This document shows, piece by piece, positions 1,877 to 52,240 of a DNA stretch of 64,000 nucleotides. Both the position numbers and the translations under genes were made by a program. Origin of the DNA: Paludibacter sp. (GTDB lineage: Bacteria; Bacteroidota; Bacteroidia; Bacteroidales; Paludibacteraceae); contig JAAFGX010000023.1 in NCBI GenBank assembly GCA_010365115.1, positions 1-64,000 on the forward strand, written 5' to 3'. Within the stretch, counting starts at the first letter, position 1, and each line of letters begins with the position of its first letter. The notes beneath the pieces were generated by a model, which was not told the origin of the DNA, made no database searches, and saw only the letters and a list, made by a program, of their open reading frames with translations.

Positions 1877-2329
1877 ATGTCAAGATTTATAGGTAAATAC
1901 GAAGCAAAAGCCGATGTAAAGGGGAGAATTTTCATTCCCTCCACATATCGTAAATTGTTGCCCGATGGCGAACGCGAACACGTAGTGATGCGTAAGGATG
2001 GCGAAAACAACTGCTTGGTGATATTTCCGGAACATGTTTGGAACGAAATACTGGATGATTTAAAATCGAAACTGGACGAATGGAACCCAACCGACCAACT
2101 GCTCTTGATGCAATATGTGTCTGATGCCGAATGGTTGGATATAGACTCACAAGGCAGGGTGTTGATTACAAAAAAGAACATGCAAGCCATCGGAGTTGAG
2201 AATTCAGAAGTTTTATTTGTTGGAATGAGCGACCGTTTTACTGTTTGGAGCAAATCTCAATACGAACAAGCCAAAATACCGCCAACAGATTTTGCAAAGT
2301 TATTAAAAGAAAGAATGATGAAACTATAA
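1877..2329 (+). CDS. mraZ: MraZ, transcriptional regulator of the dcw cluster
   Basis: MraZ is a DNA-binding protein related to SpoVT/AbrB swapped-hairpin folds and usually heads the division and cell-wall operon. I chose ATG 1877 (MSRFIGKYEAKADVKGR): the family starts with this GxYxxxxDxKGR segment, and the frame upstream to 1808 runs through the MraZ boxes. This gives 150 residues, the normal size. The two halves each carry the repeat signature D-x-KGRxxIP / D-SQGRVLI (about residues 13-22 and 86-95). The TAA stop forms the start of a REP-like repeat. The gene is followed within 50 bp by rsmH. Confidence 0.95.
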   Translation: MSRFIGKYEAKADVKGRIFIPSTYRKLLPDGEREHVVMRKDGENNCLVIFPEHVWNEILDDLKSKLDEWNPTDQLLLMQYVSDAEWLDIDSQGRVLITKKNMQAIGVENSEVLFVGMSDRFTVWSKSQYEQAKIPPTDFAKLLKERMMKL

Positions 2330-2347
2330 CCCCTAAAAGGGGATTTT
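2327..2347 (-). repeat. REP-like repeat, overlaps the mraZ stop codon
   Basis: TAACCCCTAAAAGGGGATT is the reverse form of the dispersed repeat. Its first three bases are the mraZ stop codon. It is paired with the forward copy at 2412. Confidence 0.8.
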
Positions 2348-2378
2348 AGTAGTTTATACTATTTAAAAATAAAAAAAA

Positions 2379-3329
2379 ATGAAAGACCCAAAAAGAGCCG
2401 CAAGTAACTCAGTTCCCCTTCAGGGGTTAGGGGTCTATCATACTCCTGCTCTACTAAACGAAACCCTCGAAGGTATGAATATTAAACCCGATGGTGTTTA
2501 CGTAGATGTAACTTTTGGTGGCGGCGGTCACTCTCGTGAAATTTTAGCACGATTGGGGGAAAATGGAAAACTGATAGCTTTTGATCAGGATGAAGACGCC
2601 ATAAAAAATGCACTGAAAGATCCACGGTTTATTTTTGTGCGCAGCAATTTTATGTATTTAAAAAACTTTCTTCGTTATCACAATATCGAGAAAGTGGATG
2701 GAATTTTGGGAGATTTGGGGGTTTCGTCACACCATTTTGATGAAGCCGAACGGGGCTTTTCGTTTCGTTTTGATGGCGACCTGGACATGCGAATGAACAC
2801 AAAATCGCCTCTAACAGCGGCGGTTATATTAAACACTTACTCCGAAGAGCAGTTGGCTGATGTGTTTTACTTGTATGGGGAATTACACAATTCACGAAAA
2901 ATAGCAAAAACCATTGTTAACGCAAGGGGAACGACACCTTTCAATAAAATATTTCCATTTATTGAAGTGCTTAAACCTTTTTTTGGAAGAGAAAAGGAAA
3001 AGAAAGATATGGCACGGGTATTTCAAGCTTTGCGCATTGAAGTGAATAAGGAAATGGATGTACTGAAATCGCTTTTGGATCAAAGTCTGGAAGTGTTGAA
3101 TCCTGAAGGGAGACTAGTGATTTTAACTTATCATTCATTAGAAGACAGGCTGGTAAAGAACTTTTTTAGAAGTGGGAATTTTGAAGGGAAACTAGAGAAA
3201 GATTTCTATGGGAACATCCTTTCTCCACTAAAAGCTATAAACAATAAAGTAATTATAGCTAATGCCGCCGAAATTGCACGTAATCCGCGTGCCAGAAGCG
3301 CGAAATTGAGAATTGCAGAATTAAAGTAG
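2379..3329 (+). CDS. rsmH: 16S rRNA m4C1402 methyltransferase RsmH (MraW)
   Basis: RsmH methylates N4 of C1402 in 16S rRNA with S-adenosylmethionine. The SAM-binding region DVTFGGGGHSREIL lies at about 44-57, followed by FDQDEDA and GILGDLGVSSHHFD; the C-terminal YHSLEDRLVKNFF and RNPRARSAKLR are family hallmarks. The family normally begins at the YHxPxLL segment, here residues 20-26 (YHTPALL). The preceding 19 residues contain VPLQGLGV (12-19), encoded by a REP-like repeat at 2412-2435. The ATG at 2379 is the only sensible start ahead of it, so the protein appears to carry an acquired N-terminal tail. The product is 316 residues against about 300 usually. Confidence 0.95.
   Translation: MKDPKRAASNSVPLQGLGVYHTPALLNETLEGMNIKPDGVYVDVTFGGGGHSREILARLGENGKLIAFDQDEDAIKNALKDPRFIFVRSNFMYLKNFLRYHNIEKVDGILGDLGVSSHHFDEAERGFSFRFDGDLDMRMNTKSPLTAAVILNTYSEEQLADVFYLYGELHNSRKIAKTIVNARGTTPFNKIFPFIEVLKPFFGREKEKKDMARVFQALRIEVNKEMDVLKSLLDQSLEVLNPEGRLVILTYHSLEDRLVKNFFRSGNFEGKLEKDFYGNILSPLKAINNKVIIANAAEIARNPRARSAKLRIAELK
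2412..2435 (+). repeat. REP-like repeat inside rsmH (codons 12-19)
   Basis: Forward copy: TCCCCTTCAGGGG followed by TTAGGGGTC. It lies in frame and encodes VPLQGLGV. It forms an inverted pair with 2327-2347. Confidence 0.85.
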
Positions 3330-3376
3330 AGACGATACATGCATCGTCTAAAAAAAAATGATTGCATGCATCGTCC
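3330..3376. repeat. palindromic repeat between rsmH and ftsL
   Basis: AGACGAT (3330-3336) pairs with ATCGTCT (3343-3349). After an A9 run, a second half-copy (GCATGCATCGTCC, 3364-3376) repeats the same arm. The A-run follows the hairpin on the + strand, so it does not look like a terminator for the operon. It is an unassigned intergenic palindrome. Confidence 0.5.
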
Positions 3377-3401
3377 GTACAAATAAATTATAAATCATAA
3401 A

Positions 3402-3788
3402 ATGTCCTGGTTTAAAAAAATAGCAGATGCCATAAGGGGAAGTGAAGACTTTTCCGATATAAAATCGAGCACCGTTCGGGACATTCTGAATGGCAATATA
3501 CTTACCAACAGATTTCTCCAAAAACAATACCTCTTGTTAATAATGACTGCGATATTGGCTTTTTTTTATGTCGATAATCGCTACTATTGCGAGACTCAAT
3601 TAGCTAAAGAAATTGAGATGAAAAAGAAAATTCAGGATGTAAAATACGAATCTCTTACCATCTCGGCAGAATTGATGCAAATTAGCAGACAATCGAATGT
3701 ACTGAATTTAATTAAATCGAGAGGAGTAAATTTGGAACAAACATCCTGTTCTCCTATTGTAATCCAAGCACCGGAAGAAACAAAATAA
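3402..3788 (+). CDS. ftsL: FtsL-like cell division protein
   Basis: A 128-residue bitopic membrane protein placed between rsmH and the division PBP, the fixed position of ftsL in dcw clusters. A cytoplasmic head (1-40) is followed by one membrane segment at about 42-57 (YLLLIMTAILAFFYVD). After it comes a periplasmic stretch with heptad-like AKEIEMKKKIQDVKYESLTISAELMQ spacing, expected to form a coiled coil with an FtsB-type partner in the FtsQLB complex. Sequence conservation in this family is low, so position and topology carry the call. The stop overlaps the next gene's ATG (TAATG). Confidence 0.85.
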   Translation: MSWFKKIADAIRGSEDFSDIKSSTVRDILNGNILTNRFLQKQYLLLIMTAILAFFYVDNRYYCETQLAKEIEMKKKIQDVKYESLTISAELMQISRQSNVLNLIKSRGVNLEQTSCSPIVIQAPEETK

Positions 3789-5923
3789 TGGCAGACAAAC
3801 GCAAAAATATTGTCCTTCGCTTTGGCATTGTATATGGCATTATTTGTCTGTCTTTTGTTGCGGTCATTTATAAAATTGCGGTTATTCAATTTGTTGAGCG
3901 CGACCAGTGGATGGCATTGGCAGCTCAAAGCAAAAAAACTGACATTGTTGTAAAACCCAACCGCGGGAATATTTATGCTTGCGATGGAAGATTAATGGCC
4001 AGTTCAATTCCTACTTATTATGTATATATGGATTTACGAGTTCCGGCATTGCACGAAAAAGGTGGAATTTTATTCAAAGAAAATATCGATTCGGTTGCAA
4101 TTTATTTATCTTCATTTTTTAAAGATAAAACTGCTTTTGAATACAAAACCACTATAACAAAAGCATATAACACTGGGAAAGGTGAATTTCAATTATTCCC
4201 CAAACGCATCTCTTACGCCCAGTTAAAACAACTGAAAACCTTTCCATTATTCTGCATGGGCAGAAACAAAAGCGGATTAATTACAAAAGAACTTCTCAAG
4301 CGTGTTAAACCTTTTGGATCATTGGCTTCACGGACAATCGGCGATATTTATGCAGATGAAACAAAAGGCGGAAAAAATGGCATAGAGCTTTTTTTCAATC
4401 AGCAATTATTAGGTACTTCAGGAGTTTCAATTCGTCAAAAAGTAGCCAACACCTACATGGAAACCGTGCAAGTGGAACCAATTGATGGAATGGACATTAC
4501 ATCAACCATTGATATTGATTTACAAGACATTGCAGAAAAAGCTTTATTAGACAGTTTGAGGTCATTTGATGCAGGTTCGGGGTATGTAATATTAATGGAA
4601 ACTCATTCGGGCGAAGTAAAAGCTATAGTAAACATGCAGCAAAATGCCGACAAAACATACTCTGAGAATAAGAACGGTGCCGTTTCCGATTTGGTAGAGC
4701 CGGGCTCGACATTTAAAGTAGCTTCGTTGATGGTGGCACTAGATGACAACAAAGTAAAAATAACCGATTCAATAGATACCGGAAATGGAGTTTATGAATA
4801 TGGCACTGCCAAAATGAAAGACCACAACGCTCATAAAGGCGGTTATCATACTATTTCGGTAGCTAATGTAATTCATGCTTCTTCCAACGTTGGGATTTCA
4901 AAAATCATCACCAGAGCATACGGTCATAAACCGTCGGAATTTGTTGATAAATTGTACGAAATGAAACTGAACGAGCGCATGGATCTTGAGATTCCTGGAA
5001 CTGCAGCTCCTCAAATCGATCATCCAAACGACAAATCGAAATACTGGTCACAAACAAAACTTCCTTGGATGTCAATAGGATACGAAACACAGATTCCTCC
5101 AATTTATACGTTGGCCTTTTATAATGCCATTGCAAACAATGGTAAATTAATCAAACCGTTTTTTGTAAAATCAATCAGCAAAAACGGACAACTGATACAA
5201 TCGTTTGAAACAGAAACCATCAAAGAATCTATTTGTAAACCAACTACTTTACGAGATATTCGCGAAGTTTTATTGGGTGTGATTGAAGGAAAACTAGGAA
5301 CTGCACACAATATGAAATCAAAATACGTGCGCATTGCCGGAAAGACGGGAACAGCACAGATTTCAAAAGGTGCATTAGGATATAAATCGGGAGGAAAAAC
5401 ACATCAGGTTTCGTTTTGTGGCTATTTTCCAGCGGATGATCCTCAATACACCTGCATAGTTGTCATTCGAGAGCCCCGCATTGGTTATCCATCGGGTGGA
5501 AAAATGGCCGGATCTGTTTTTAAGAATGTGGCTGAACGGGTTATGGCATTAAAGTCGAATAGGAAACCCAATACATTTGAAGTAGACACTATTTTAAAAT
5601 TCCCTTTAAATCCATATACCAAATCGGGTTATTACAAGGCTTTGCAAACAGTTATGACTGAGTTAAAATTGCCTATTGCAGCAAATCCAACAGAGTGGAT
5701 AAAATCAACAATAAATGAAAAAGAAATTCGCTCAGAAGCTGTTTCGTTTACCGGAAACAAAATTCCCGATTTAACAGGAATGGGTGCAAAAGATGCGGTT
5801 TATCTGGCTGAAAGAATGGGATTATACGTTCGGGTACAAGGTCATGGCAAAGTGATTTCGCAAAACCTTACGCCGGGCACTGTTGCAAAAAAAGGAAGTA
5901 TGATTTCAATTAATTTACAATAA
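3788..5923 (+). CDS. ftsI: division-specific penicillin-binding protein (FtsI/PBP3 type) with PASTA domain
   Basis: A class B PBP that cross-links septal peptidoglycan together with FtsW. The product has 711 residues. An N-terminal membrane anchor lies at about 8-33, followed by the PBP dimer domain ([16 protein letters not shown] at about 56-71). In the transpeptidase domain the active-site STFK spans 307-310, SSN 365-367 and KTG 519-521, so all three catalytic motifs are intact. A single PASTA domain closes the protein (from about [12 protein letters not shown] to the end), typical of the Bacteroidota version. Translational coupling with ftsL is likely because start and stop share one base. 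Confidence 0.95.
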
Positions 5924-5955
5924 ATCAATTTACTACATTAATAAAATTGACGAAT

Positions 5956-8708: not shown

Positions 8709-8718
8709 AAAAGAGAAC

Positions 8719-8743
8719 CACTAACCCCTAAAGGGGAATTGGG
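8719..8743 (-). repeat. REP-like repeat downstream of mraY
   Basis: Reverse copy with CTAACCCC and TAAAGGGGAATT. Paired with the forward copy at 8823; together they bracket the AT-rich mraY-murD gap. Confidence 0.85.
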
Positions 8744-8822: not shown

Positions 8823-8850
8823 AATTCCCCTTTTGGGGCTAGGGGTAGTC
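8823..8850 (+). repeat. REP-like repeat just before murD
   Basis: Forward copy with AATTCCCCTTTTGGGG and CTAGGGGTAGTC. It ends two bases before the murD ATG, so any translation-initiation signal of murD lies in the repeat. Confidence 0.85.
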
Positions 8851-10187: not shown

Positions 10188-10188
10188 G

Positions 10189-10223
10189 AAGTCGGTAGTT
10201 TATAGTTGGTAGTTTATAGTCAA
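10189..10223 (+). repeat. period-7 array between murD and ftsW
   Basis: Five heptamers: AAGTCGG, TAGTTTA, TAGTTGG, TAGTTTA, TAGTCAA. It starts one base after the murD stop and belongs to the same TAGTNNN family as the arrays after ftsA, at 56282 and at 60845. Confidence 0.75.
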
Positions 10224-10257
10224 TGCAAATGTCTTTGATCTTTTGTCTCTAAATAAA

Positions 10258-11489: not shown

Positions 11490-11540
11490 GAACCCCTATC
11501 CCCTCCCGCTAAATCGGGATAAATTGCGGGGAATAAGGAT
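11490..11540 (-). repeat. degenerate REP-like repeat after ftsW
   Basis: AACCCCTATCCCCTCCCGC followed by an imperfect CGGGATAAATTGCGGGG hairpin. It resembles the reverse form of the dispersed repeat and pairs with the forward copy at 11609. Confidence 0.5.
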
Positions 11541-11608: not shown

Positions 11609-11633
11609 AGCTCCCCTTTAGGGGCTGGGGGTC
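11609..11633 (+). repeat. REP-like repeat just before murG
   Basis: Forward copy with CTCCCCTTTAGGGGC and TGGGGGTC, ending three bases before the murG ATG. Confidence 0.85.
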
Positions 11634-16279: not shown

Positions 16280-16311
16280 TGGGAAGTTTATAGTAAATAG
16301 TTTATAGTAAA
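16277..16311 (+). repeat. period-7 array starting on the ftsA stop codon
   Basis: Five heptamers: TAGTGGG, AAGTTTA, TAGTAAA, TAGTTTA, TAGTAAA. The first TAG is the ftsA stop. Confidence 0.75.
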
Positions 16312-16332
16312 ATCTGAAAAACAAAAAAATAT

Positions 16333-17691: not shown

Positions 17692-17720
17692 AATTCCCCC
17701 TTTTGGGGGTTAGGGGGCTA
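17692..17720 (+). repeat. REP-like repeat before yqeY (single)
   Basis: Forward copy, AATTCCCCCTTTTGGGGG then TTAGGGGGCTA, ending 7 bp before the yqeY start. No reverse partner is seen nearby. Confidence 0.85.
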
Positions 17721-17727: not shown

Positions 17728-18183
17728 ATGGACGAACTATTTGATAAAGTAAGCGGCGATATAAAAACCGCCATGTTGGCTCGAGACAAAGTGGCATTGG
17801 AAGCCTTGCGAGGCATGAAAAAAGAATTTCTGGAAGCTAAAACAGCCAAAGGTAGTGATGGTCATCTGGCGGATGAAGTTGCTGTAAAAATCATTCAAAA
17901 AATGATAAAACAGCGCAAAGAATCGGCCCAGATTTATACCGAACAAAACAGACCCGAACTGGCCGAAAACGAATTGGCCGAAGCAACTGTTATTGAAAAA
18001 TATCTGCCGGTACAAATGACCGATGCTGAATTGGAAACTGCTATTGCGGCAATTATTGCTCAGGTTGGTGCCGCCGGACCACAAGATATGGGGAAAGTAA
18101 TGGGCGTTGCCAGCAAACAATTGGCTGGAAAAATCGAAGGACGATTGATTTCGGAAAAAGTGAAAGCATTGTTGGCAAAATAA
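17728..18183 (+). CDS. GatB/YqeY domain protein
   Basis: A 151-residue stand-alone YqeY domain, related to the tRNA-binding C-terminal domain of the amidotransferase subunit GatB. It starts LFDKVSGDIKTAMLARDKVALEALRGMKKEF and carries the helical repeat around KIIQKMIKQRKESAQIYTEQ. The closing GKVMGVASKQLAGKIEGRLISEKVKALLAK is typical. The precise role of the free-standing protein is unsettled. It commonly follows ftsZ in Bacteroidota and is probably part of the same transcript, which then ends at the terminator at 18208. Confidence 0.93.
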   Translation: MDELFDKVSGDIKTAMLARDKVALEALRGMKKEFLEAKTAKGSDGHLADEVAVKIIQKMIKQRKESAQIYTEQNRPELAENELAEATVIEKYLPVQMTDAELETAIAAIIAQVGAAGPQDMGKVMGVASKQLAGKIEGRLISEKVKALLAK

Positions 18184-32129: not shown

Positions 32130-32155
32130 AAGCCCCCATTTGGAGGTTGGGGGTC
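32130..32155 (+). repeat. REP-like repeat before comM (single, diverged)
   Basis: AGCCCCCATTTGGAGG followed by TTGGGGGTC, 22 bp ahead of the comM start. Confidence 0.7.
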
Positions 32156-32177: not shown

Positions 32178-33716
32178 ATGTTAGTAAAAACTTTTGGCGC
32201 TGCAGTACAAGGAATAAATGCCACCATTGTTACAATTGAAGTAAATGTAAGTCAGGGAATCCGTTTCTTGCATGTTGGTTTGCCAGACAACGCAGTGAAA
32301 GAAAGTCATGAACGCATTGCTTCTGCATTGAATTATACTGGAAATAGCTTTCCCCGTAAACAGATTATCATCAATATGGCTCCGGCCGATATTCGCAAAG
32401 AAGGTTCGGCTTATGATTTGCCAATGGCTATTGGAATAATGGCAGCCGATGAAAAACTTGTTTCTGAGAAACTGGAACATTTTGTAATTATGGGCGAACT
32501 GTCCTTGGATGGTGGGTTACAACCTATAAAAGGCGTATTGCCCATTGCCATAAAAGCACGAGAAGATGGTTTTAAAGGTTTTATTCTTCCAAAGCAAAAC
32601 GCACGTGAAGCGGCAGTGGTAAATAATCTGGACGTTTATGGTGTTGAAAATATCACTGAAGTTATTCAGTTTTTTAGAGGTGAATCAACTCTGGAACCAA
32701 CGGTTGTAAATACACGAGATGAGTTTTTCAGCAATTTGAATCATATTGAAATTAATTTTGCTGATGTAAAAGGTCAGGAAAATGTAAAGCGAGCGTTGGA
32801 AGTAGCGGCTGCGGGTGGTCATAATATTATCATGGTCGGTCCTCCCGGAGCAGGAAAGTCGATGTTAGCTAAAAGAATTCCAACCATTCTGCCTCCGTTA
32901 TCGCTTCAAGAAGCATTGGAAACCACCAAAATACATTCAGTTGCCGGAAATATCGACAGCAATACTTCGCTCATTTCACAACGACCTTTTCGAAGTCCCC
33001 ATCACACAATTTCTGATGTGGCACTGGTTGGTGGCGGTACTTTTCCGCAACCTGGCGAAATTTCGTTGGCACACAATGGTGTTTTATTTCTCGACGAACT
33101 TCCTGAATTCAAAAGGACTGTATTGGAAGTTATGCGCCAACCGCTCGAAGACCGGAAAATTTGTATTTCACGTGCAAAATTTTCTATTGAATATCCGGCA
33201 AGTTTTATGTTGGTGGCTTCCATGAATCCATGTCCGTGTGGGTATTACAATCATCCCGATCGCAATTGTGTTTGTGGTCCGGGCGTGGTGCAAAAATACC
33301 TGAGTCGTATTTCCGGTCCGTTGCTCGACCGCATTGATATTCATATTGAGATAGTGCCTGTTCCGTTCGAAAAACTTTCAGAAATGAAAGATTCTGAAAG
33401 TAGCGAAGATGTGCGCGACAGGGTAATGAAAGCCCGACAAATTCAGGAACAACGCTTTAAAGATATTGATGGCGTATATTGTAACGCACAAATGTCGTCG
33501 AAACAAATGCGCACTTTTGCACAAATTGACAAAGCAGGTTCAGAATTGCTCAAAAATGCCATGAATCGCCTCAATTTATCGGCTCGCGCTTATGACAGAA
33601 TTATAAAAGTTGCCCGAACAATTTCTGATTTGGAGGACTCAGAGAACATACTTTCCAATCATATAGCAGAAGCAATCAATTATCGAAATCTGGATAGAGA
33701 AGGTTGGGCAGGATGA
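32178..33716 (+). CDS. comM: YifB/ComM-family Mg-chelatase-like AAA+ ATPase
   Basis: A hexameric AAA+ helicase-like protein; ComM promotes branch migration during natural transformation in other bacteria. The N-terminal ChlI-like domain begins MLVKTFGAAVQGI. The Walker A is GPPGAGKSML, Walker B LFLDELPEF, and a cysteine cluster CPCGYYNHPDRNCVCGPG with RISGPLLDRIDIHIEI follows. The C-terminal AAA lid contains NLSARAYDRIIKVARTI. The 512 residues match the family. No other competence gene is nearby, so the role in DNA uptake here is not shown. Confidence 0.93.
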   Translation: MLVKTFGAAVQGINATIVTIEVNVSQGIRFLHVGLPDNAVKESHERIASALNYTGNSFPRKQIIINMAPADIRKEGSAYDLPMAIGIMAADEKLVSEKLEHFVIMGELSLDGGLQPIKGVLPIAIKAREDGFKGFILPKQNAREAAVVNNLDVYGVENITEVIQFFRGESTLEPTVVNTRDEFFSNLNHIEINFADVKGQENVKRALEVAAAGGHNIIMVGPPGAGKSMLAKRIPTILPPLSLQEALETTKIHSVAGNIDSNTSLISQRPFRSPHHTISDVALVGGGTFPQPGEISLAHNGVLFLDELPEFKRTVLEVMRQPLEDRKICISRAKFSIEYPASFMLVASMNPCPCGYYNHPDRNCVCGPGVVQKYLSRISGPLLDRIDIHIEIVPVPFEKLSEMKDSESSEDVRDRVMKARQIQEQRFKDIDGVYCNAQMSSKQMRTFAQIDKAGSELLKNAMNRLNLSARAYDRIIKVARTISDLEDSENILSNHIAEAINYRNLDREGWAG

Positions 33717-38515: not shown

Positions 38516-39400
38516 TTAACCCAAATCGATATGTTCGGCTTGAATTTCATCGTTCAAAAAGACAGAAGCCGAGGAAGCGAATTTTTCAACTGATTCGGTG
38601 GTAAAATATCGAATCGAGCCATTTTTGGTACAACGTTCGTCCATTTCGGGATGGCGTTGCAAATAATCCACTAAACTACGCGCTACAATTTCGCCCTGCG
38701 AAACGACTTGAATTCTTTCTGACAAAAGTGATTTAATCTTATCTTCGAGCAACGGATAATGGGTGCAACCTAACATTATTGTATCAATTTGCGCATCAGA
38801 TTCTATTAAATGTAGTACATTTTTCCTGATAAAATAATCAGCTCCTTTGGATAAATATTCGTTATTTTCTATCAGCGGAACCCACATGGGACAGGCTTCG
38901 GATGTAACGATCACATCGTTGTATAATTTTTGGATTTCAAGTGGATAAGAATTGGACTGAACAGTTCCTGTTGTAGCTAATAATCCGATATGTTTTGATT
39001 TTGTCATTGCTCCTACCGCTTCCACAGTTGGTCGAATAACCCCTAAAACCCGGCGATTGGCATCAAGAAGTGGTAAATCATGCTGCTGAATGGTTCTTAA
39101 AGCTTTTGCCGATGCCGTATTGCAGGCCAACACCACCAACTGGCAACCCATTTCAAATAATTTGGTGACGCATTCCAACGTATATTTATAAACCACATCA
39201 AACGAACGTGTTCCGTAAGGAGTACGGGCATTATCGCCCAAATAGACAAAATCGTATTCTGGCAATTCCGTACGAATTTTTTCAAGAATAGTCAAACCGC
39301 CATATCCTGAATCAAAAATACCGATTGGCCCCGGAACTACCCCTAACCCCTGAAGGGGAATTAAGCAAGTATTGGTTTTGACATTTTTCTTCATATTCAT
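38516..39400 (-). CDS. murI: glutamate racemase MurI
   Basis: This cytoplasmic enzyme makes D-glutamate for peptidoglycan, the substrate of MurD. Both catalytic cysteines are present: ACNTASAKALR and MLGCTHYPLLE. GIFDSGYGGLTIL and YLGDNARTPYGTRS are diagnostic. The normal protein begins shortly before PGPIGIFDSGYGG, but here residues 13-22 (LIPLQGLGVV) are encoded by a REP-like repeat, giving a 23-residue N-terminal tail. The ATG at 39400 and the one at 39394 (Met3) both lie ahead of the repeat, so the tail must be translated unless a non-AUG start is used. The product has 294 residues. Confidence 0.94.
   Translation of the reverse strand: MNMKKNVKTNTCLIPLQGLGVVPGPIGIFDSGYGGLTILEKIRTELPEYDFVYLGDNARTPYGTRSFDVVYKYTLECVTKLFEMGCQLVVLACNTASAKALRTIQQHDLPLLDANRRVLGVIRPTVEAVGAMTKSKHIGLLATTGTVQSNSYPLEIQKLYNDVIVTSEACPMWVPLIENNEYLSKGADYFIRKNVLHLIESDAQIDTIMLGCTHYPLLEDKIKSLLSERIQVVSQGEIVARSLVDYLQRHPEMDERCTKNGSIRYFTTESVEKFASSASVFLNDEIQAEHIDLG
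39339..39365 (-). repeat. REP-like repeat inside murI
   Basis: On the gene strand: AATTCCCCTTCAGGGG then TTAGGGGT, translated as IPLQGLGV. Paired with 39444-39469. Confidence 0.85.
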
Positions 39401-39443: not shown

Positions 39444-39469
39444 AGTTCCCCTTCAGGGGTTAGGGGTTC
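39444..39469 (+). repeat. REP-like repeat between the M23 gene and murI
   Basis: AGTTCCCCTTCAGGGG then TTAGGGGTTC. It is the inverted partner of the copy inside murI, 79 bp away. Confidence 0.85.
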
Positions 39470-39486: not shown

Positions 39487-40455
39487 TTAGTCCATCATCT
39501 GTCCGGAGTTATTACTCATTTGAACCATTTTGTCGTATTCAGCAGGTGACAAATCCATGAAATAATAATTTTGTGGATTCATAACAGTTCCTTTGTAATG
39601 GACTTCGTAATGTAAGTGTGGTCCGGTAGATTTTCCGGTACTTCCAACTAACCCGATCACATCACCGCGCTTTACCGATTGCCCAACTCTCACTTTTATG
39701 GCACTCATGTGTCCGTAAAGTGTAAGATAGCCGTACCCATGATTGACTTGAACACAATTCCCATAGCCTTGTTGCCAGCCGGCACTTTGAATGGTGCCAT
39801 TTCCCGTAGCAAAAATATCAGCACCAATGGGAGCTGTAAAATCCATTCCTTCGTGAAACCTTCTGGTGTGATAAACCGGATCGATACGCCAGCCATAACC
39901 GGAAGCCATACGCGTCAAATCTTTATTTAAAACTGGTTGTATAGCAGGTAAATGTTGTAGCATCTTTTCTTTATTTTTGGCTAAAAGCACCAAATCATCG
40001 TACGATTTTGATTGTATGTACAATTGCTTCTTAAGCTCATTGAGTTTCTTAGTTGTTGAAACTACTATTTCCGAATTGGTCATATCCAATAACTGTTCGA
40101 AGAATTCAGTATTGGCTGAAGTTCCTTTTCTAACGGATAATGGAATGAGATCGGCCTGAAAAACAACACGATATAAATTATCATCACGTTGTTGCAAATC
40201 TGATATTATTGATTGTACTTCGTCAAACTGACGTTCCAATACTTTATATTGCGCCTGCATATTTCGCTTTTCTTCGCTCAATTGCTTTTCTTCGGGTGAT
40301 TGTATAGTGGAAACAAAAATAAAGAAAAAAAATGCACCTAAAGACAATCCTGAGATCGCATGAATCAACGTTTGTTTTAGCCAATGTGTAAAGGTATGTT
40401 CAATTTGCTCGTAACTTAACGTTTCGGGATTGAAATGGAATTTTTTCTTTGCCAT
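39487..40455 (-). CDS. M23 (LytM) family metallopeptidase, membrane-anchored
   Basis: A peptidoglycan endopeptidase or a catalytically competent relative. I start at ATG 40455 (MAKKKFHFNPETLSYEQIE), the usual opening of this Bacteroidota family, instead of 40497, giving 322 residues. One membrane helix spans about 30-53 (TLIHAISGLSLGAFFFFIFVS). A coiled-coil region follows (about 60-110, QYKVLERQFDEVQSIISDLQQRDDN). The M23 domain has zinc ligands in RRFHEGMDFTAPIGADI and GPHLHYEVHYKG, so the HxxxD and HxH motifs are intact. It faces the periplasm and lies upstream of murI. Confidence 0.9.
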   Translation of the reverse strand: MAKKKFHFNPETLSYEQIEHTFTHWLKQTLIHAISGLSLGAFFFFIFVSTIQSPEEKQLSEEKRNMQAQYKVLERQFDEVQSIISDLQQRDDNLYRVVFQADLIPLSVRKGTSANTEFFEQLLDMTNSEIVVSTTKKLNELKKQLYIQSKSYDDLVLLAKNKEKMLQHLPAIQPVLNKDLTRMASGYGWRIDPVYHTRRFHEGMDFTAPIGADIFATGNGTIQSAGWQQGYGNCVQVNHGYGYLTLYGHMSAIKVRVGQSVKRGDVIGLVGSTGKSTGPHLHYEVHYKGTVMNPQNYYFMDLSPAEYDKMVQMSNNSGQMMD

Positions 40456-40610
40456 AAAGGAATTTTGGTTATATTCAGTGCGTTTTATACTAAGCACACG
40501 AGTCTAAAAATTGGAGGAAAATGCAAGTTAATCAATCGTTTCTAAAAGAAAATCAACATGTAATTACAATTTTTATACCAACACTTGCTGCAAAAATAAT
40601 AAATTTGAGC

Positions 40611-40646: not shown

Positions 40647-40675
40647 AACCCCTAAATCCCCTAAAGGGGACTCTT
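40647..40675 (-). repeat. REP-like repeat in the alaS leader
   Basis: AACCCCTAAATCCCCTAAAG followed by GGGACTC. The forward partner starts four bases later. Confidence 0.8.
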
Positions 40676-40678: not shown

Positions 40679-40702
40679 ACTCTCTTTAGGAGGCAGGGGG
40701 TC
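40679..40702 (+). repeat. diverged REP-like repeat in the alaS leader
   Basis: CTCTCTTTAGGAGG followed by CAGGGGGTC, 16 bp before the alaS ATG. With 40647-40675 it could fold into one long hairpin that takes up the leader. Confidence 0.65.
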
Positions 40703-40718: not shown

Positions 40719-43346
40719 ATGACATCACAAGAAATTCGTCAGTCTTTTCTCGATTTTTTTGCTTCCAAAGGACACAAAATCGTTCCGTCAGCGCCCATGG
40801 TTATTAAAGATGATCCAACTTTGATGTTTACCAATGCGGGTATGAACCAATTCAAAAATATCATTTTGGGCAATGACCCGATAAAATATTCAAGAATAGT
40901 CGACTCGCAAAAGTGTCTTCGCGTAAGCGGAAAACACAACGACCTGGAAGAAGTTGGACACGACACCTACCACCACACCATGTTCGAAATGTTGGGAAAC
41001 TGGTCGTTTGGCGATTATTTCAAAAAAGAAGCCATCGAGTGGGCGTGGGAATATTTGGTTGATGTATTGAAACTAGATACCGAAAGACTTTACGTAACTG
41101 TTTTCGAAGGATATGCTCCGGAAGGTTTGGAACGCGATGATGAAGCCGCAGCTATTTGGGAACAATTCCTACCAAAAAGCCGTATTATCAACGGTAATAA
41201 AAAAGATAATTTTTGGGAAATGGGCGATACCGGTCCTTGTGGTCCTTGCTCCGAAATTCATATCGATATCCGTGACAACGAAGACCGTGCAAAAATTGAC
41301 GGATTGACACTAGTAAACGGAAGTCATCCTCAAGTGATTGAAATATGGAATAATGTATTTATGCAGTACAATCGCAAAGCTGACGGATCGCTCGAAGGAT
41401 TGCCAGCCAAGGTAATTGATACAGGAATGGGCTTCGAACGTTTATGTATGGCCATGCAAGGCGTTAAGTCGAACTACGACACAGATATTTTCACACCTAT
41501 TATTGCAGAAATTGGAAATGTGTGCGGGGCAGTGTATGGCAAAGACGAAAAAGTGGATATTGCTATGCGTGTAATTGCAGATCATATTCGCACCATTGCA
41601 TTTTCTATCACCGACGGTCAATTGCCTTCGAATGCCAAAGCAGGTTACGTAATTCGTCGTATTTTGCGCCGTGCCGTTCGTTATGGTTACACTTTCCTTG
41701 GTCAACGTCATGCCTTTATGTATAAATTAATAAGCATATTGGGCGATGTAATGGGTAAAGCTTACCCCGAACTAGTTTCGCAAAAATCGTTGATTGAAAA
41801 AGTTATTAAAGAAGAGGAAGAATCATTCTTACGCACACTGGAGAAAGGCATCAGTATGCTTGACAAATACCTCCCAACCTCACCCCTAGCCCCTCTACCC
41901 GGGGAGAGGGGAACTGTATTGAGCGGTACAGTTGCATTTACTCTTTATGATACTTTTGGATTTCCACTTGATTTAACAGAGCTTATTCTTCGTGAGAATG
42001 GAATGTCCGTAAATATTGAAGAATTCAATGTTGAAATGAAAAAACAAAAAGAACGCGCACGCAATGCAGCAGCCACCGAAACCGGCGATTGGGTTACGGT
42101 TCGTGAAGGAGACATCAAGTTTGTGGGTTACGATTTTACTTCGTTTGACACAGAGATTTTACGCTATCGCAAAGTGAAACAAAAAAATCAGGAGTATTAC
42201 CAATTGGTACTTTCCAATACACCTTTCTATGCCGAAATGGGTGGACAAGTAGGCGATTGTGGTGTTCTGGTTTCTGAGGATGAAAGAATTGAAATTCTTG
42301 ATACAAAAAAAGAAAATAATCTGGCGGTTCATATTGTAAATCAACTTACAGCGGACGTAACTGCAACATTTACAGCAACAATTGATACTGAAAAACGCAA
42401 GGCTACCGAATGCAACCACTCGGCTACGCACTTATTGCACGAAGCATTGCGTGAGGTACTTGGTACGCACGTAGAGCAAAAAGGTTCGTACGTAAGCCCT
42501 GATGCATTGCGTTTCGACTTTTCGCATTACCAAAAAATGACAAAAGAAGAAATTCGTGCTGTGGAAGCTATCGCCAACCGTAAAATACGCGAAAACTATG
42601 CATTGAACGAAATACGCGACACACCGATAGCTGAAGCACAAGCACTTGGAGCTATGGCGTTATTTGGCGAAAAATACGGCGAGACAGTGCGTGTAATTCA
42701 ATTCGGAACTTCAACCGAACTTTGTGGAGGAACACACGTGCAAGCTACCGGCGAAATCGGAATGGTGCGTATTGTTGCCGAAACTTCTATTGCTGCAGGC
42801 ATCCGTCGTTTGGAAGCCATCACAGCTTCCGGCATCGAAAAATTACTTGACAGTCAACAAGACACGCTGGCAGAAGCCAAAGAAATATTGAATAATACCC
42901 CTGACCTACTGAATGCTATCAAGAAATCACAGGAGGAAAACAGCGAGTTGAAAAAGCAAGTTGAAGCATTTATGCATGAAAAAATCATGTCATTGCGTGA
43001 CAGTTTACTAGCCAACGCCAATGAGATTAATAATATAAAAGTAATTCGTTTCGACGGGAACCTCAATGCTGATCAGGTAAAAACACTGGCATTTCAAATC
43101 CGGAATGTACAAACTGAGCATCTTTTCTTTGTAGCCGGTTGCGTTGCCGATGGTAAACCTTCGCTTACCATTTTGATTTCTGATGATCTGGTAGCAGCTG
43201 GAATGAACGCCGTAAACATTGCCCGCGATGCTGCAAAAGAAATTCAAGGTGGCGGTGGCGGACAATCGTTCTTCGCTTCGGCAGGTGGAAAAAATGCTGC
43301 AGGAATTAATCGTGCTATTGAGAAAGCTTTGAATGCTGTAAAATAG
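40719..43346 (+). CDS. alaS: alanyl-tRNA synthetase
   Basis: Class II synthetase that charges tRNA-Ala. The catalytic domain begins with the [20 protein letters not shown] segment, with [21 protein letters not shown]-like residues ([14 protein letters not shown]). The editing domain has zinc ligands [11 protein letters not shown] and CGGTH, and the C-Ala domain ends with [14 protein letters not shown]. The product has 875 residues. Residues 385-401 ([17 protein letters not shown]) are encoded by a repeat at 41881-41916 and sit in the variable stretch just before [15 protein letters not shown]. This should be a surface loop, so activity is probably kept. The start is ATG 40719. Confidence 0.97.
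41881..41916 (-). repeat. REP-like repeat inside alaS (single, variant form)
   Basis: CACCCCTAGCCCCTCTACCC followed by GGGGAGAGGGGAACTG. It keeps the frame and encodes [12 protein letters not shown]. It is a longer-stem variant of the repeat. Confidence 0.8.
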
Positions 43347-47821: not shown

Positions 47822-47829
47822 CGTTTTAC

Positions 47830-47886
47830 TTCAGAGTTCGCAAAAACTAGCAAAGTAAATAGAGAAAACTTTGCGATTCTCTGCAT
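47830..47886. repeat. miniature element with GxxExxY-type ends
   Basis: TCAGAGTTCGCAAA (from 47831) and TTTGCGATTCTCTG (to 47883) are imperfect inverted arms around about 25 bp. The arms match the ends of the GxxExxY element at 50047-50570 (GCAGAGA..CGCAAAG). It looks like an internally deleted, gene-less copy. Confidence 0.6.
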
Positions 47887-47903
47887 CAAACTTTGCGTTC
47901 TTT

Positions 47904-48317: not shown

Positions 48318-48346
48318 TCATAATGTATTAATTTGAATAAAGCATA

Positions 48347-48961
48347 TTAAAATTTGATTAACGAATGTATTTCTTTCGCCGATTCTAATCTGGCTTTCCC
48401 ATTTAAAAATGTAAGTTCAATTAAAAAACTCACATAAACCGAATTATGTGAAAACTTAGTGAGCAATTCCAGCGCAGCACTTGCGCTTCCTCCCGTGGCA
48501 AGCAAATCATCGTGCAACAGAACTACATCGTCCTCATCAATAGAATCTACATGGATTTCAAGCGAATCGGTTCCATATTCCAGTGCATAATCAACCTTAT
48601 ACGTTTCGGCCGGGAGTTTTCCGGGTTTGCGCAACAATACAAATCCGGCGCCTAGTTTGTAAGCAAGAATACTTCCCAACACAAATCCGCGACTTTCAAC
48701 TCCAACGACTTTGGTTATTCCTTTGTCTTTGTAATAATCATAAAGCTCATCAGCAATGAATTTCAACACTTCGGCATCTTTCATAGCCGTAGTAATATCT
48801 TTAAACATAATTCCGGGTTTTGGAAAATCCGGTACGTTGCGAATGGAAGCGATAACTTGTTCTAAATTTGCCCCCCGACCCACTGAAGGGGGAGTTAAGT
48901 GCCCCCCGACCCCCTGAAGGGGGAATTTGGAGTTTGTATCGTTATTTTCTGTAGTACTCAT
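48347..48961 (-). CDS. apt: adenine phosphoribosyltransferase
   Basis: A purine-salvage enzyme that converts adenine and PRPP to AMP. The core begins at about residue 33 (LEQVIASIRNVPDFPKPGIMFKDIT), the normal family start. The PRPP loop is VVLLHDDLLATGGSASAA (about 146-163), and GVESRGFVLG and RKPGKLP are typical. Residues 13-30 (FPLQGVGGHLTPPSVGRG) come from two tandem REP-like repeats, so the protein carries a 30-residue N-terminal tail; the length is 204 against about 172. No internal ATG exists between the repeat and the core, so the tail is expected in the product. Confidence 0.94.
   Translation of the reverse strand: MSTTENNDTNSKFPLQGVGGHLTPPSVGRGANLEQVIASIRNVPDFPKPGIMFKDITTAMKDAEVLKFIADELYDYYKDKGITKVVGVESRGFVLGSILAYKLGAGFVLLRKPGKLPAETYKVDYALEYGTDSLEIHVDSIDEDDVVLLHDDLLATGGSASAALELLTKFSHNSVYVSFLIELTFLNGKARLESAKEIHSLIKF
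48868..48928 (-). repeat. tandem pair of REP-like repeats inside apt
   Basis: Two copies, CCCCCCGACCCACTGAAGGG (48870 on) and CCCCCCGACCCCCTGAAGGG (48902 on), in the same orientation and 31 bp apart. The gene-strand reading encodes FPLQGVGG and then TPPSVGRG in a different frame register. Forward partner at 49012. Confidence 0.85.
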
Positions 48962-49011
48962 TGTAAAAAAATAAATTAAGAATTAACAACTTGGAGATAA
49001 TCGGTTGTGTT

Positions 49012-49044
49012 TTAAATTCCCCTTTTGGTGGTTAGGGGGTAGTT
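49012..49044 (+). repeat. REP-like repeat at the argF' 3' end
   Basis: AAATTCCCCTTTTGGTGG then TTAGGGGGTAGTT. On the minus strand it provides the last codons of argF' (Thr-Thr-Pro) and its TAA stop (49034-49032). Confidence 0.8.
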
Positions 49045-50030
49045 AATAATCTTTTAATGACTACCTGAGCTGAGATTTCTCGGTTTGCAGCTTCTGGAAT
49101 CACAATGGACTGAGGACTTTCAATTACTTCGTCGGTCACAATCATATTACGGCGAACAGGCAAACAATGCATAAAATGAGCATTATTAGTCACTGCCATC
49201 TGACGGCGACTTACTGTCCAGTCACGATCGGTACTCAATATTTTCCCATAATTTGGATCCTGATAAGCCGACCAGTTTTTGGCATAAATAAAATCGGCAC
49301 CTTCAAAGGCTTTCATCTGGTCGTATTCTACTGTTGCTCCACGAACAAATTCGTCGGCCAACTCATAACCTTTTGGATGTGTGATTACGAAATCAACATC
49401 TGCTTCGTTCATAAAATCGGCAAATGAATTAGGAACAGCTTGTGGCAATGCTTTCGGATGTGGCGCCCAGGTAAGAACTACTTTCGGACGAGCTGTTTTT
49501 TTATATTCTTCTATCGTTATTAAATCGGCAAAAGCTTGTAAAGGATGACCAGTGGCGGCTTCCATGCTGAAAACTGGTTTGCCGGAATGTTGTATAAATT
49601 GATTAATAATGGTTTCCTGATAATCGAATTCTTTATCTTCCAACCCTGCAAAAGCACGTACGCCAATTACATCACAGTAACTTGCCATAACAGGAATTGC
49701 TTCCAGAATATGTTCTGGTTTATCACCGTCCATTATCACACCACGTTCGGTTTCGAGCTTCCATGCACCAGAGTTGATATCAAGAACCATGGTATTCATT
49801 CCCAAATTCATTCCTGCCTTTTGAGTACTTAAACGGGTTCTCAAACTGGAATTAAAAAACACCATCAACAATGTTTTATTTTCGCCGATATGTTTGTAGG
49901 CATATCTATTTTTTTTTATTTCAAGTGCCTCATTAATTGCATCCTGCAAATTACCGAGGTCTTTTACATTTGTAAAAGATGTACCCCTAACCCCTAAAGG
50001 GAAATTCGGGTTGATATTGTTGGTTTTCAT
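49032..50030 (-). CDS. argF': N-succinylornithine carbamoyltransferase ArgF'
   Basis: A transcarbamylase that acts on N-succinyl-L-ornithine, the Bacteroidota variant of arginine synthesis. NSSLRTRLSTQKAGMNLGMN carries the carbamoyl-phosphate loop (S-x-R-T-R) and MASYCDVIGVRAFA, HSGKPVFSMEAATGHPLQAFADL and HCLPVRRNMIVTDEVIE are near-identical, as recalled, to the B. fragilis enzyme. Residues 9-18 (NFPLGVRGTS) are encoded by a REP-like repeat at 49981-50010, and the C-terminal TTP and stop come from a second repeat. The family core begins at FTNVKDLGNLQ. The product has 332 residues against about 318. Confidence 0.93.
   Translation of the reverse strand: MKTNNINPNFPLGVRGTSFTNVKDLGNLQDAINEALEIKKNRYAYKHIGENKTLLMVFFNSSLRTRLSTQKAGMNLGMNTMVLDINSGAWKLETERGVIMDGDKPEHILEAIPVMASYCDVIGVRAFAGLEDKEFDYQETIINQFIQHSGKPVFSMEAATGHPLQAFADLITIEEYKKTARPKVVLTWAPHPKALPQAVPNSFADFMNEADVDFVITHPKGYELADEFVRGATVEYDQMKAFEGADFIYAKNWSAYQDPNYGKILSTDRDWTVSRRQMAVTNNAHFMHCLPVRRNMIVTDEVIESPQSIVIPEAANREISAQVVIKRLLTTP
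49981..50010 (-). repeat. REP-like repeat inside argF' (N-terminal codons)
   Basis: GTACCCCTAACCCCTAAAGG then GAAATTCGGG. On the gene strand it encodes NFPLGVRGT. One G is missing compared with the consensus, which changes the peptide from PLQGLG-like to PLGVRG. Confidence 0.8.
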
Positions 50031-50046
50031 TTTCGTGTTAAATTAT

Positions 50047-50570
50047 TAATCGCAGAGAGCGCAAAGACATCGCAAAGAAAATTTTGTTTAATGGAATTCT
50101 GTGTGAAAACTCTGAGCTCCTGAGGTTTATTCTTATAAGTTATTTACTAATCTTTTTAATCCATCCACTAATCTCAAAACATTAAAATTCACTAACAAGC
50201 CTAGTTTACAACCAGACAGTTTGAGATATGTAATTACTTGAGCGACATGAATATCATTTAGCGCTTCAACTGATTTTAGTTCTATTATTACTTTATTTTC
50301 TACAAGTAAATCAAGTCGATAGCCAACGTCTAGTTTTACATCTTTATAAATCAAAGGTAATGGTTTCTGTTTTTCAACTTTTAAACCAATTTCTTTTAAT
50401 TCGAACCAAAGGCACTCTAAATATGCACTTTCGAGCAAACCCGGACCAAGCGATTTATGTACTTGAATTGCACAACCAATTATTCTTTCAGACAATTCAT
50501 TTTCAGTCATAATTTCATTTAATTCTTCGGTTTTTTCTTTGCGTATTCTTGGCGTTCTCTGCGGTTTAAA
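50047..50570. mobile_element. putative small element carrying the GxxExxY gene
   Basis: The left end, CGCAGAGAGCGCAAAGACAT plus CGCAAAGAAAA (50050-50081), is matched on the other strand by the right end, ACCGCAGAGAACGCCAAGA plus ATACGCAAAGAAAA (50532-50564). These are imperfect inverted ends of about 36 bp, both next to TTAA. The only gene inside is GxxExxY. No transposase is encoded, so mobility would need help in trans. Confidence 0.55.
50133..50510 (-). CDS. GxxExxY family protein
   Basis: A 125-residue protein with the name-giving motif G-P-G-L-L-E-S-A-Y at about 22-30 (LGPGLLESAYLECL). The downstream core YRLDLLVENKVIIELKSVE resembles a PD-(D/E)xK nuclease-like active site (D..E-x-K). 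Its biological role is unknown. It lies between porX and argF' inside an inverted-repeat-bounded segment, which suggests a mobile origin. Start ATG 50510. Confidence 0.88.
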   Translation of the reverse strand: MTENELSERIIGCAIQVHKSLGPGLLESAYLECLWFELKEIGLKVEKQKPLPLIYKDVKLDVGYRLDLLVENKVIIELKSVEALNDIHVAQVITYLKLSGCKLGLLVNFNVLRLVDGLKRLVNNL

Positions 50571-50575
50571 GAGCT

Positions 50576-52123
50576 TTATTTCGGTTGCATAACTACAAGC
50601 GGAAGCAGCATTTCTTCCAATGAAATTCCACCGTGCTGAAAAGTGCTTTTATAATAGCTCACATAATGATTGTAATTATTAGGATAGGCAAAAAAACTAT
50701 CATTATTTGCAAAAATGTAGGCTGAACTTACATTTGGACTTGGCAATCCAACCTTTGCAGGTTGTAATATTTCAAATACTTCTTTTTTGTTGTAACTCAG
50801 ATTTTTGCCCACTTTATAACGCAAATTTACATTCGTGTTTCTATCGCCAATTACTTTAATGGCATTATTCACCTGAATGGTGCCGTGATCGGTTGTGAAA
50901 ACCACTTTGTAACCACGTTGCGCAATCGCCTTGAAAAGTTCGTAAGTTGGTGAGTGCTTAAACCACGAAAGCGTTAATGAACGATATGCATTCGCATCGT
51001 TTGCCAATTCTCGCATCATTTTAGATTCGGTACGGGCATGCGACAACATGTCGATAAAATTTAACACGCACACATTCAGTTGATTATTATCAATGCGTGG
51101 CAATTGGTCAATCAACCGTTCGCACGAATTGGAATCATTTATTTTGTGATATGAAAAAGTATAATTTTTCCGATAGCGGGTAAACATTGTTTGCAACAAA
51201 TCTTTTTCATTCATATTCTTACCTTCTTCGTCCTCTTCTTCCACCCACAAATCGGGGAACATTTGTTGTATTTGTAAAGGAAGCAATCCCGAGAAAATAG
51301 AATTTCGTGCATATTGAGTGGCAGTAGGTAAGATGCTGCAATACAATTCTTCTTCGTTGAACTGATAAAACTCACTAAGTAATTCGCGAATTACTTTCCA
51401 TTGATCGTAACGGAAATTGTCAACTACAATAAAAAAAACTTTTTCTCCATTATCGAGCAACGGAAAAACCTTTGTTTTGAATAAATCGGGACTAATCAAC
51501 GGACGTTTATCAGGATGCGCAAACCAATCTTCATAGTTTTTACGAATAAATTTTGTAAACGTATTGTTGGCATCCGTTTTTTGCATCTGAAGCATTTCAT
51601 CCATCCCATTGTCGGTTTCAGCCAATTCCAATTCCCAGTAAACCAGCTTTTTATACACTTCCACCCAATCTTCATAAGTTAAGGAATCGTTTATTTGCAT
51701 CCCTATTCTGCCAAATTGCGATTGATATGTTGAAGTAGTATGCTCAGTTACAATTTCCTTTTGATGAATATTCTTTTTCAATGTCAATAAAATCTGGCTC
51801 GGATTTACAGGTTTTGTCAAATAATCGGCTATTTTTCTGCCAATAGCCATATTCATGATATTCTCCTCCTCGCTTTTGGTAATCATCACCAGTGGAACGT
51901 TCGCATCAATATCTTTTATTAGTCCCAATGTTTCAAGTCCACTCAAACCGGGCATGTTTTCATCCAGAAAAATAATATCAAAACTTTCTTTCTGACATAA
52001 TTCTACTGCATCCTTTCCATTTGTAGCGGTTACTACTTCGTACCCTTTTTCTTCTAAAAATAATATGTACGGGCGCAACAAATCAATTTCATCATCGGCC
52101 CAAAGTATTCGGTCTTTTTTCAT
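50576..52123 (-). CDS. porX: T9SS response regulator with PglZ domain, PorX
   Basis: A two-component response regulator controlling type IX secretion genes in Bacteroidota, usually with the kinase PorY and sigma factor SigP. The receiver domain (1 to about 120) has acidic D10/D11, phospho-acceptor D54 (IFLDENMPG), T82 and K104. A helical linker leads to a PglZ-type alkaline-phosphatase-like domain (about 205-510), with metal-binding residues in FFIVVDNFRYDQW, LNFIDMLSHA and VVFTTDHGTIQVN. The product has 515 residues, as in known PorX proteins. The gene order porW-porX on one strand fits a T9SS role. Confidence 0.92.
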   Translation of the reverse strand: MKKDRILWADDEIDLLRPYILFLEEKGYEVVTATNGKDAVELCQKESFDIIFLDENMPGLSGLETLGLIKDIDANVPLVMITKSEEENIMNMAIGRKIADYLTKPVNPSQILLTLKKNIHQKEIVTEHTTSTYQSQFGRIGMQINDSLTYEDWVEVYKKLVYWELELAETDNGMDEMLQMQKTDANNTFTKFIRKNYEDWFAHPDKRPLISPDLFKTKVFPLLDNGEKVFFIVVDNFRYDQWKVIRELLSEFYQFNEEELYCSILPTATQYARNSIFSGLLPLQIQQMFPDLWVEEEDEEGKNMNEKDLLQTMFTRYRKNYTFSYHKINDSNSCERLIDQLPRIDNNQLNVCVLNFIDMLSHARTESKMMRELANDANAYRSLTLSWFKHSPTYELFKAIAQRGYKVVFTTDHGTIQVNNAIKVIGDRNTNVNLRYKVGKNLSYNKKEVFEILQPAKVGLPSPNVSSAYIFANNDSFFAYPNNYNHYVSYYKSTFQHGGISLEEMLLPLVVMQPK

Positions 52124-52128
52124 AATCA

Positions 52129-52160
52129 GTAGCCCCCTAAATCCCCCATGGGGGACTTTT
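52129..52160 (-). repeat. REP-like repeat before porX
   Basis: AGTAGCCCCCTAAATCCCCC followed by ATGGGGGAC, lying directly upstream of the porX start on its strand. Partner at 52209. Confidence 0.75.
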
Positions 52161-52208
52161 CTTTAGTATTTATTTTTATTATTATTAACATCTTTAGTTA
52201 TGTATTTT

Positions 52209-52240
52209 AGCCCTTGAAGTCTCCTTTTGGGGAGGTTGTT
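52209..52240 (+). repeat. diverged REP-like repeat between porW and porX
   Basis: AGCCCTTGAAGTCTCC followed by TTTTGGGGAGG. It is the inverted partner of 52129-52160. Confidence 0.55.

Follow-up and report, generated by a model that had tools for sequence, protein, structure and literature searches.

Paired palindromic repeats of a Paludibacter sp. contig as probable ends of small mobile elements that carry a DUF559 gene

A stretch of 64,000 nucleotides from Paludibacter sp. (assembly GCA_010365115.1, contig JAAFGX010000023.1, positions 1 to 64,000; hereafter the window) contains a family of short palindromic repeats that form pairs in which a reverse (R) arm precedes a forward (F) arm. These repeats are probably the ends of small mobile elements whose full form consists of an R arm, a gene for a protein with the DUF559 domain (PF04480) and an F arm, and the pairs of the window would represent gene-less derivatives spread in trans. 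The host is a Bacteroidales metagenome-assembled genome (MAG), and its rsmH-like gene is closest, among named records, to Paludibacter sp. and other Bacteroidales MAGs.

Each arm is a short hairpin formed by a C-run and a G-run, with a third run located outside the hairpin. The repeats are real and occur far above chance. The core motif TCCCCTTNAGGGG, scanned with at most one mismatch, is matched 10 times in the window, a figure that includes one palindrome (40657/40658) scored on both strands; 100 shuffles yield 0.06 matches on average. This confirms the repeat family proposed in the initial annotation of this DNA. A fuller arm model (C-run, loop, G-run, linker and G-run, with at most one substitution) returns 18 rows in the window, three of them re-reading one palindrome, and four diverged arms were added by eye (2330, 11493, 40680 and ~52209), including the two copies, at 11490 and 52209, that had already been described as diverged. 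The total of 19 arms (Table 1) replaces the 18 sites first counted, the reverse side of the pair at 48868 consisting of two tandem arms. All seven pairs reported as reverse-then-forward read so, and their AT-rich spacers, previously given as 4-86 bp, measure ~10 to 95 bp by the arm ends used here. In the whole genome (4.79 Mb, 207 contigs) the core is matched 193 times and the reversed pattern 9 times; the core is nearly palindromic, so some sites are scored on both strands. In 453 kb of host sequence, comprising the window and 20 further stretches, the arm model finds 77 rows, compared with 5 in block-shuffled and reversed controls taken together. Orientation is non-random, as close neighbours of opposite orientation in these 453 kb run R then F, the exceptions being palindromes read twice and one F arm (contig C43, 76327) located 285 bp before an R arm. 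Tandem R-R neighbours and single arms are present beside the R..F pairs. The same R-F geometry is seen in stretches of G016, a complete genome of the genus, where an apparent run of cores exclusively on the plus strand (1.17-2.89 Mb) was rejected as a listing artefact after reverse arms were found there.

The gene enclosed by the arms was seen first in G016, where a DUF559 gene is tightly flanked by an arm on each side. PF04480 is present in 31 of 40 genomes of the genus, and 57 DUF559 loci were scanned (30 returned by the search, 20 chosen before their flanks were seen and 7 from PurL). These correspond to 50 distinct places, 48 of which have enough flanking sequence, and seven of the 48 represent one shared PurL site. 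An R arm upstream and an F arm downstream, both within 250 bp, are found at 31/48 loci, and at least one arm at 43/48. The same test is positive for 8 of 330 genes of the host genome, 2 of 3000 random segments and none of 28 loci of RAYT transposase genes (Fisher p = 6e-26 for DUF559 against host genes, uncorrected for kinship). In a test that makes no use of the motif, inverted repeats in the flanks surpass, at 24 of 30 DUF559 loci of the genus, the 99th percentile set by 2000 random segments of the host.

Arm type and enzyme clade correspond. On a tree of 48 DUF559 domains (two of the 50 were dropped as short), eight arm labels, including 'none' and 'other', require 14 changes compared with 32.5 when shuffled, and none of 200 shuffles is as low. 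The Mantel r between arm type and DUF559 is 0.61 when all 42 arm-bearing rows are used. It is 0.64 when each named host site contributes a single row (n=30) and 0.71 when the comparison is limited to the 24 rows labelled stand-alone, some of which sit in long frames whose host gene is unnamed; p is 0.0002 in all three. Copy number behaves similarly. With RAYT count and genome size held constant, core copies across 36 genomes show a partial Spearman correlation of 0.65 with DUF559 count (p = 0.00025); the corresponding value for RAYT count, with DUF559 count and genome size held constant, is -0.21. A test of exact types, with T1 and T2 assigned by eye to proteins sharing at least 60% identity with the single seed of each type, is weaker: p for more cores in genomes with the type is 0.085 for T1, 0.016 for T2 and 0.022 for T1 or T2, with 0.005 for the PurL type and 0.001 for any of the three.

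DUF559 is, by profile, a Vsr-like nuclease of the EDxHD/PD-(D/E)XK type. Matches to PF04480 lie above the Pfam gathering score for L271 (3e-33), the PurL insert (1.4e-29) and the MetH insert (1.1e-30), and profile matches extend to the solved endonuclease-like protein 3hrl (E 4.7e-31) and to the mobile-intron protein 3r3p (E 3.9e-7), which we take to be I-Bth0305I. Residues E32, D60, E71, D73 and H77 are invariant in eight chosen members and are putatively catalytic. A Caulobacter DUF559 protein is likewise treated as Vsr-like in the consulted part of a recent report (PMC12907096). Of 198 genomes sampled across the phylum, 109 have the domain, and flank inverted repeats exceed the host-genome threshold at 20 of the 30 phylum-wide loci returned. 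Among eight named plasmid loci chosen from 44 records of Cyanobacteria, Alphaproteobacteria and Deinococcus, seven have flank palindromes that score above the 99th percentile obtained when their own bases are shuffled; the excess is clear in four and amounts to 1 to 10 points in the other three. The locus of Pseudanabaena sp. ABRG5-3 displays the same arm design.

The complete element is also found in frame within conserved enzymes. In the host, PurL (an open frame of 1373 aa) and MetH each contain a complete DUF559 domain flanked by arm-encoded peptides, and further DUF559 inserts are carried by UvrA and by class I tRNA synthetases (IleS and ValS, identified by sight). The frame remains open in all of these, and no splicing partner was recognised, no intein or intron search having been made. 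Among 30 PurL loci from 30 genomes, seven are filled with R-DUF559-F and 23 are empty, the element taking the place of a seven-residue loop, EQADGxK or nearly so, between ETTGDM and PI(D/N)L. The median ratio of nonsynonymous to synonymous substitution (dN/dS) is 0.20 in the PurL insert and 0.06 in its flanks, and insert dS is below flank dS in 21 of 21 pairs (7 sequences), which suggests that the insert may have spread laterally after the species split. In the window, a short copy of another arm subtype is present in frame within alaS. In an alignment of 29 relatives, the peptide is almost identical in L336. Six more (L346, L348, L352, L353, L356 and L357) look repeat-derived by eye, and the remaining relatives have loops of other kinds.

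Placement relative to genes was assessed with gene starts from a simple longest-ORF (open reading frame) caller, and gene names of the dcw and trp-like clusters were assigned by sight. In gene orientation, R arms are mostly within ~30 bp of a stop codon, and F arms mostly lie either up to ~30 bp upstream of a start codon or 21-72 nt into the ORF; a few arms deviate, being deeper in genes or farther off. The placement of pairs between co-directional genes, claimed initially, holds for six of the seven, the pair at 40647 separating divergent genes. The description of the repeats as intergenic was incomplete, since a number of copies form part of translated sequence, in N-termini or internal loops: arms 2414, 39340, 48871/48902 and 49984 lie 28-69 nt within the 5' ends of ORFs, and 41890 within alaS. 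Of the 78 exact arms in stretches of the host and of G016, 19 belong to a reading frame that opens at an ATG 31-76 nt upstream and continues through the arm, and the resulting leaders are often similar (e.g. MNINKNIQNDTNSNSPLGVGG). Some copies of the window provide the next gene with its start codon and leader. The trp-like cluster L132 (G000:C95, 12-19 kb) contains five R..F pairs, and in six of its genes an F arm lies at the start or is translated as an N-terminal leader. Upstream of type-A (T1) DUF559 genes, a module R-ATG-leader-F is recognised in 4/8 cases by the arm model and in a fifth (L260) by eye, and its leader resembles those of the rsmH-like gene of the window and of the trp-like genes. 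The simplest reading is that the pairs of the window derive from this 5' module of the nuclease-bearing element. A separate reading-frame test was rejected as circular: all seven read-through arms in the TTTAG-stop frame carry TTCAG, and stop-bearing arms are uncountable by design. Confidence in the DUF559 interpretation was slightly lowered because of this circularity and because not all type-A modules have both arms.

Comparison of orthologous gaps points to mobility. Fourteen related loci were compared, in 10 of which both mraY and murD were found. The mraY-murD gap holds a pair in L040, a single arm in L045 and no arm in the other eight relatives, six of these arm-free gaps measuring 3-19 nt including the stop codon. 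The ftsW-murG pair recurs in 2 of 10 relatives (L041 and L045), with a possible remnant in L035. Both pairs are therefore absent from most of the 10 relatives, and conservation of the pairs across genera, which would have spoken for regulatory elements, was not found. The mraZ-rsmH pair recurs in ~5 of 14 relatives, by eye and partly degenerate, and is for this reason considered older. The core is present in 2 to 396 copies over 35 genomes of the genus, and in 158 copies in G048, a genome of another family. With gaps either filled or empty, the repeats behave as mobile elements. The likeness to REPINs (inverted doublets of repetitive extragenic palindromic sequences, REPs) drawn in the initial annotation is upheld by the fixed orientation, the high and variable copy number and the presence or absence at orthologous gaps.

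Movement could proceed in two steps. The DUF559 nuclease would nick or cut the arms or the empty target, and repair would then copy the arm-bounded segment into the cut site, in a homing-like or hairpin-mediated manner. Insertions would survive where they are harmless: in the short spaces that separate genes of an operon, at start codons, which they span so that the element's own ATG and leader run in frame into the next gene, and in protein loops.

Several observations weigh against mobilisation of the repeats by DUF559, which is proposed from sequence comparison, no movement having been observed. The main weakness is that the host assembly has no DUF559 of type A, the exact arm type of the window; its DUF559 copies are those of PurL (5C type) and MetH (another type), a stand-alone gene with a stop codon and a weak fragment. 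Between 68 and 325 cores are held by 10 of 20 genomes without T1, T2 or PurL-type DUF559, and G011 (161 cores) and G026 (124 cores) have no DUF559 that could be found; relics, cross-mobilisation or assembly gaps could lie behind such genomes. One or both arms are missing at 17/48 DUF559 loci, and none of five loci of clade T8 (L244, L270, L272, L262 and L238) has both, so not every DUF559 belongs to such a system; T8 may have another role. No F arm is visible in 3/8 T1 modules. The raw correlation of core copies is equal for genome size and DUF559 count (0.67 each), the arm labels come from patterns written after the arms had been seen, and the genomes and loci are related, so that correlations and label counts are not fully independent. 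The PurL insert replaces seven codons, no target duplication having been recognised there, and the dS contrast may partly reflect its lower G+C content at third codon positions (0.23, against 0.33-0.38 in the flanks).

The alternative that survives best is that DUF559 is merely a passenger or favoured neighbour, its genes being enclosed in or captured by repeats that another enzyme moves. In its favour, there are genomes with many cores and no matching DUF559, and no report of a link between DUF559 and such repeats, or of DUF559 mobilising or acting on the arms, was found in the open-access literature searched, where absence is unproven. It is nevertheless improbable: arm type matches DUF559 clade by clade, copy number retains a partial correlation with DUF559 count, the nuclease inserted in PurL has a low dN/dS, and palindromes flank DUF559 in other phyla.

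Few short repeats are as common in bacterial genomes as REP-like ones, and RAYTs are the enzyme family generally tied to REPs; a REPIN/RAYT study was reportedly made by Nunvar in 2010. Mobilisation of the doublets by a RAYT, an HUH Y1 enzyme that would recognise and move the inverted arm doublets, was proposed for the window. It has in its favour the REPIN-like form of the doublets, the RAYT-profile matches in 35/40 genus genomes, the presence of Y1/RAYT genes in the host, a raw Spearman correlation of 0.43 between core copies and RAYT count (p = 0.0097) and single arms near a few RAYTs, ~200 bp upstream in L174 and ~270 bp away in L034. The proposal was largely refuted by a core scan, a listing of ORFs and arms, the flank inverted repeats and the arm test. 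Cores were found by the scan at 2 of 30 RAYT loci, well away from the gene, and by the listing at six of 22 (L156, L159, L173, L174, L176 and L184), L159 and L173 being one place. Of the 30 loci in the genus, 28 were usable for the flank and arm tests: arms on both sides are seen at none and on one side at a single locus. Flank inverted repeats are significant at 17/28, as RAYTs should show, and by eye none of them in the 28 loci is of the present arm family. Two RAYT-like genes of the host, L034 (G000:C13; its RAYT-profile match is just below the cut-off) and L033 (G000:C115), have their own unrelated REPs, CAGCGGTT..AACCGCTG and GCGCAGAAT..ATTCTGTGC. Three of the four host Y1 loci have no arms and L034 has them on one side, so none shows an element with its own Y1 transposase between arms, as in IS200/IS605. 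A GTAG/GGAG foot is absent from the arm consensus (52 F and 55 R arms), and an arm pair in G017 sits inside a RAYT gene that has other REPs. Together with the negative partial correlation with RAYT count, these results make RAYT mobilisation very unlikely, and this part of the initial annotation does not stand. In the G017 case (L184, G017:C109, ~2200-2340) the CCCC-arm pair is inserted in the RAYT gene and interrupts it, a different REP family surrounding the gene. The RAYTs L152 and L153 have another CCCC...GGGG hairpin at their flanks; their own REP and that of L174 (G028:C43) start with CCCC and end with GGGG (CCCCTCGTTTGCAACGAGGGGTTAATGG), resembling the repeat of the window superficially.

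That the repeats are host regulatory or terminator elements retained at gene boundaries for function is the least credible alternative of all, since their regular placement (R near stops, F near starts) and the arrangement of the trp-like cluster are set against orthologous gaps that in relatives mostly have no arms or different sets, the wide range of copy number in the genus, copies within coding sequence and conserved enzymes, and the result of Rfam, which has no family at gathering score in the window, an Rfam leader or riboswitch being rejected on this account.

The proposed DUF559 elements share features with several known systems. Rickettsia palindromic elements occur in frame in genes, tolerated as extra loops, and resemble the present inserts in this respect; they differ in that an enzyme-bearing form was found here, and we know of no enzyme for them. 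REPIN/RAYT systems, as described in the part of Bertels and Rainey 2011 consulted (PMC3116915), are alike in having inverted doublets of short palindromes in hundreds of copies and one nuclease/transposase gene flanked by its cognate repeat, with repeat type matching enzyme clade. In contrast, the flanked gene of the present family is by profile a Vsr-like DUF559 nuclease rather than an HUH Y1 enzyme, a GT[AG]G foot is missing, and the enzyme-bearing unit is found in several places, some in frame inside genes. An atypical foot is also recorded for REPs of subclass 2.6 in the excerpt available of PMC6006769. According to the same excerpt, the repeat insertions in the subclass 2.4 tnpA_REP gene keep the frame open and the subclass occurs in Bacteroidetes and Cyanobacteria, a similarity to the present elements, from which it differs in enzyme family and repeat sequence. 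EDxHD homing endonucleases such as I-Bth0305I (PMC3943268, in part) are comparable by their insertion in a conserved gene at a site empty in relatives and by the profile match to 3r3p, and one DUF559/EDxHD gene is recorded among inteins in a section of PMC9403480. The present unit differs from these endonucleases in being bounded by palindromic arms that are also found as many solo pairs, and in an insert that stays in the reading frame. Finally, the RepRanger survey of REPs describes thousands of palindromic elements in two Flavobacterium genomes, the consulted portion making no mention of RAYT (PMC12306157).

Positions of the individual arms are collected in Table 1. Other repeats occupy neighbouring gaps: the rsmH-ftsL gap (3330-3401) is filled by a different small palindromic repeat of the GATGCATCGTC type, and tandem TTTATAGTAAATAGT-like units, apparently another intergenic repeat family, are found in short gaps at 16280-16332 and 10188-10242 and in the rsmH-ftsL gap of L035.

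Table 1. Repeat arms of the window, with strand, gene context and basis of the assignment.
Feature	Position	Strand	Context	Basis
R arm, pair 1	2330..2343	-	outer C-run absent; adjoins stop codon of upstream ORF (2327-2329)	sequence, by eye
F arm, pair 1	2414..2433	+	35 nt into rsmH-like ORF (ATG 2379); in-frame reading ...NSVPLQGLGVYHTP	
R arm, pair 2 (mraY-murD gap)	8718..8737	-		core + arm model
F arm, pair 2	8826..8845	+	murD ATG 7 bp downstream	core + arm model
Diverged R arm, pair 3 (ftsW-murG gap)	11493..11533	-		sequence, by eye
F arm, pair 3	11611..11631	+	murG ATG 5 bp downstream	core + arm model
Single F arm	17695..17717	+	ATG at 17728, 10 bp downstream	arm model
Single F arm	32133..32153	+	ATG at 32178, 24 bp downstream	arm model
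R arm, pair 4	39340..39359	-	in gene orientation F, in frame, N-terminus of ORF 38516-39400(-)	
F arm, pair 4	39447..39466	+	20 bp past stop of ORF 39487-40497(-)	arm model
R arm, pair 5, ATTTAGGGG linker type	40649..40670	-	between divergent genes	arm model
Diverged F arm, pair 5	40680..40700	+	upstream of alaS	sequence, by eye
In-frame palindromic insert, CCCCTCTCC/GGAGAGGGG subfamily	41883..41911	.	inside alaS, read as 15-letter peptide	
Two tandem R arms, pair 6	48871..48924	-	in gene orientation F arms in N-terminus of ORF 48347-48961(-)	
F arm, pair 6	49019..49039	+	at stop of ORF 49032-50030(-)	arm model
Single arm	49984..50003	-	in gene orientation F; 28 nt into ORF 49032-50030(-)	
R arm, pair 7, ATTTAGGGG linker type	52134..52155	-		arm model
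Strongly diverged F arm, pair 7	52209..52240 (ends approximate)	+	missed by arm model	by eye

DUF559 would represent a second, unrelated nuclease family with the signs known from RAYTs, often flanked by repeats, matched to them by clade and tracking their copy number, and a domain of 'unknown function' gains a testable role. The elements may also show how conserved proteins such as PurL, MetH, UvrA and tRNA synthetases acquire N-terminal leaders and internal domains from mobile DNA. The chances are evenly balanced that they form a separate class of bacterial mobile DNA, made of palindrome-bounded translatable elements spread by DUF559, in which enzyme-bearing copies reside in frame within conserved enzymes and copies without the enzyme, numbering hundreds, rewrite the starts of genes. 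If true, this would account for many of the abundant C/G-run palindromic repeats of Bacteroidota, Cyanobacteria, Alphaproteobacteria and Deinococcota, to which, to our knowledge, no enzyme has been assigned.

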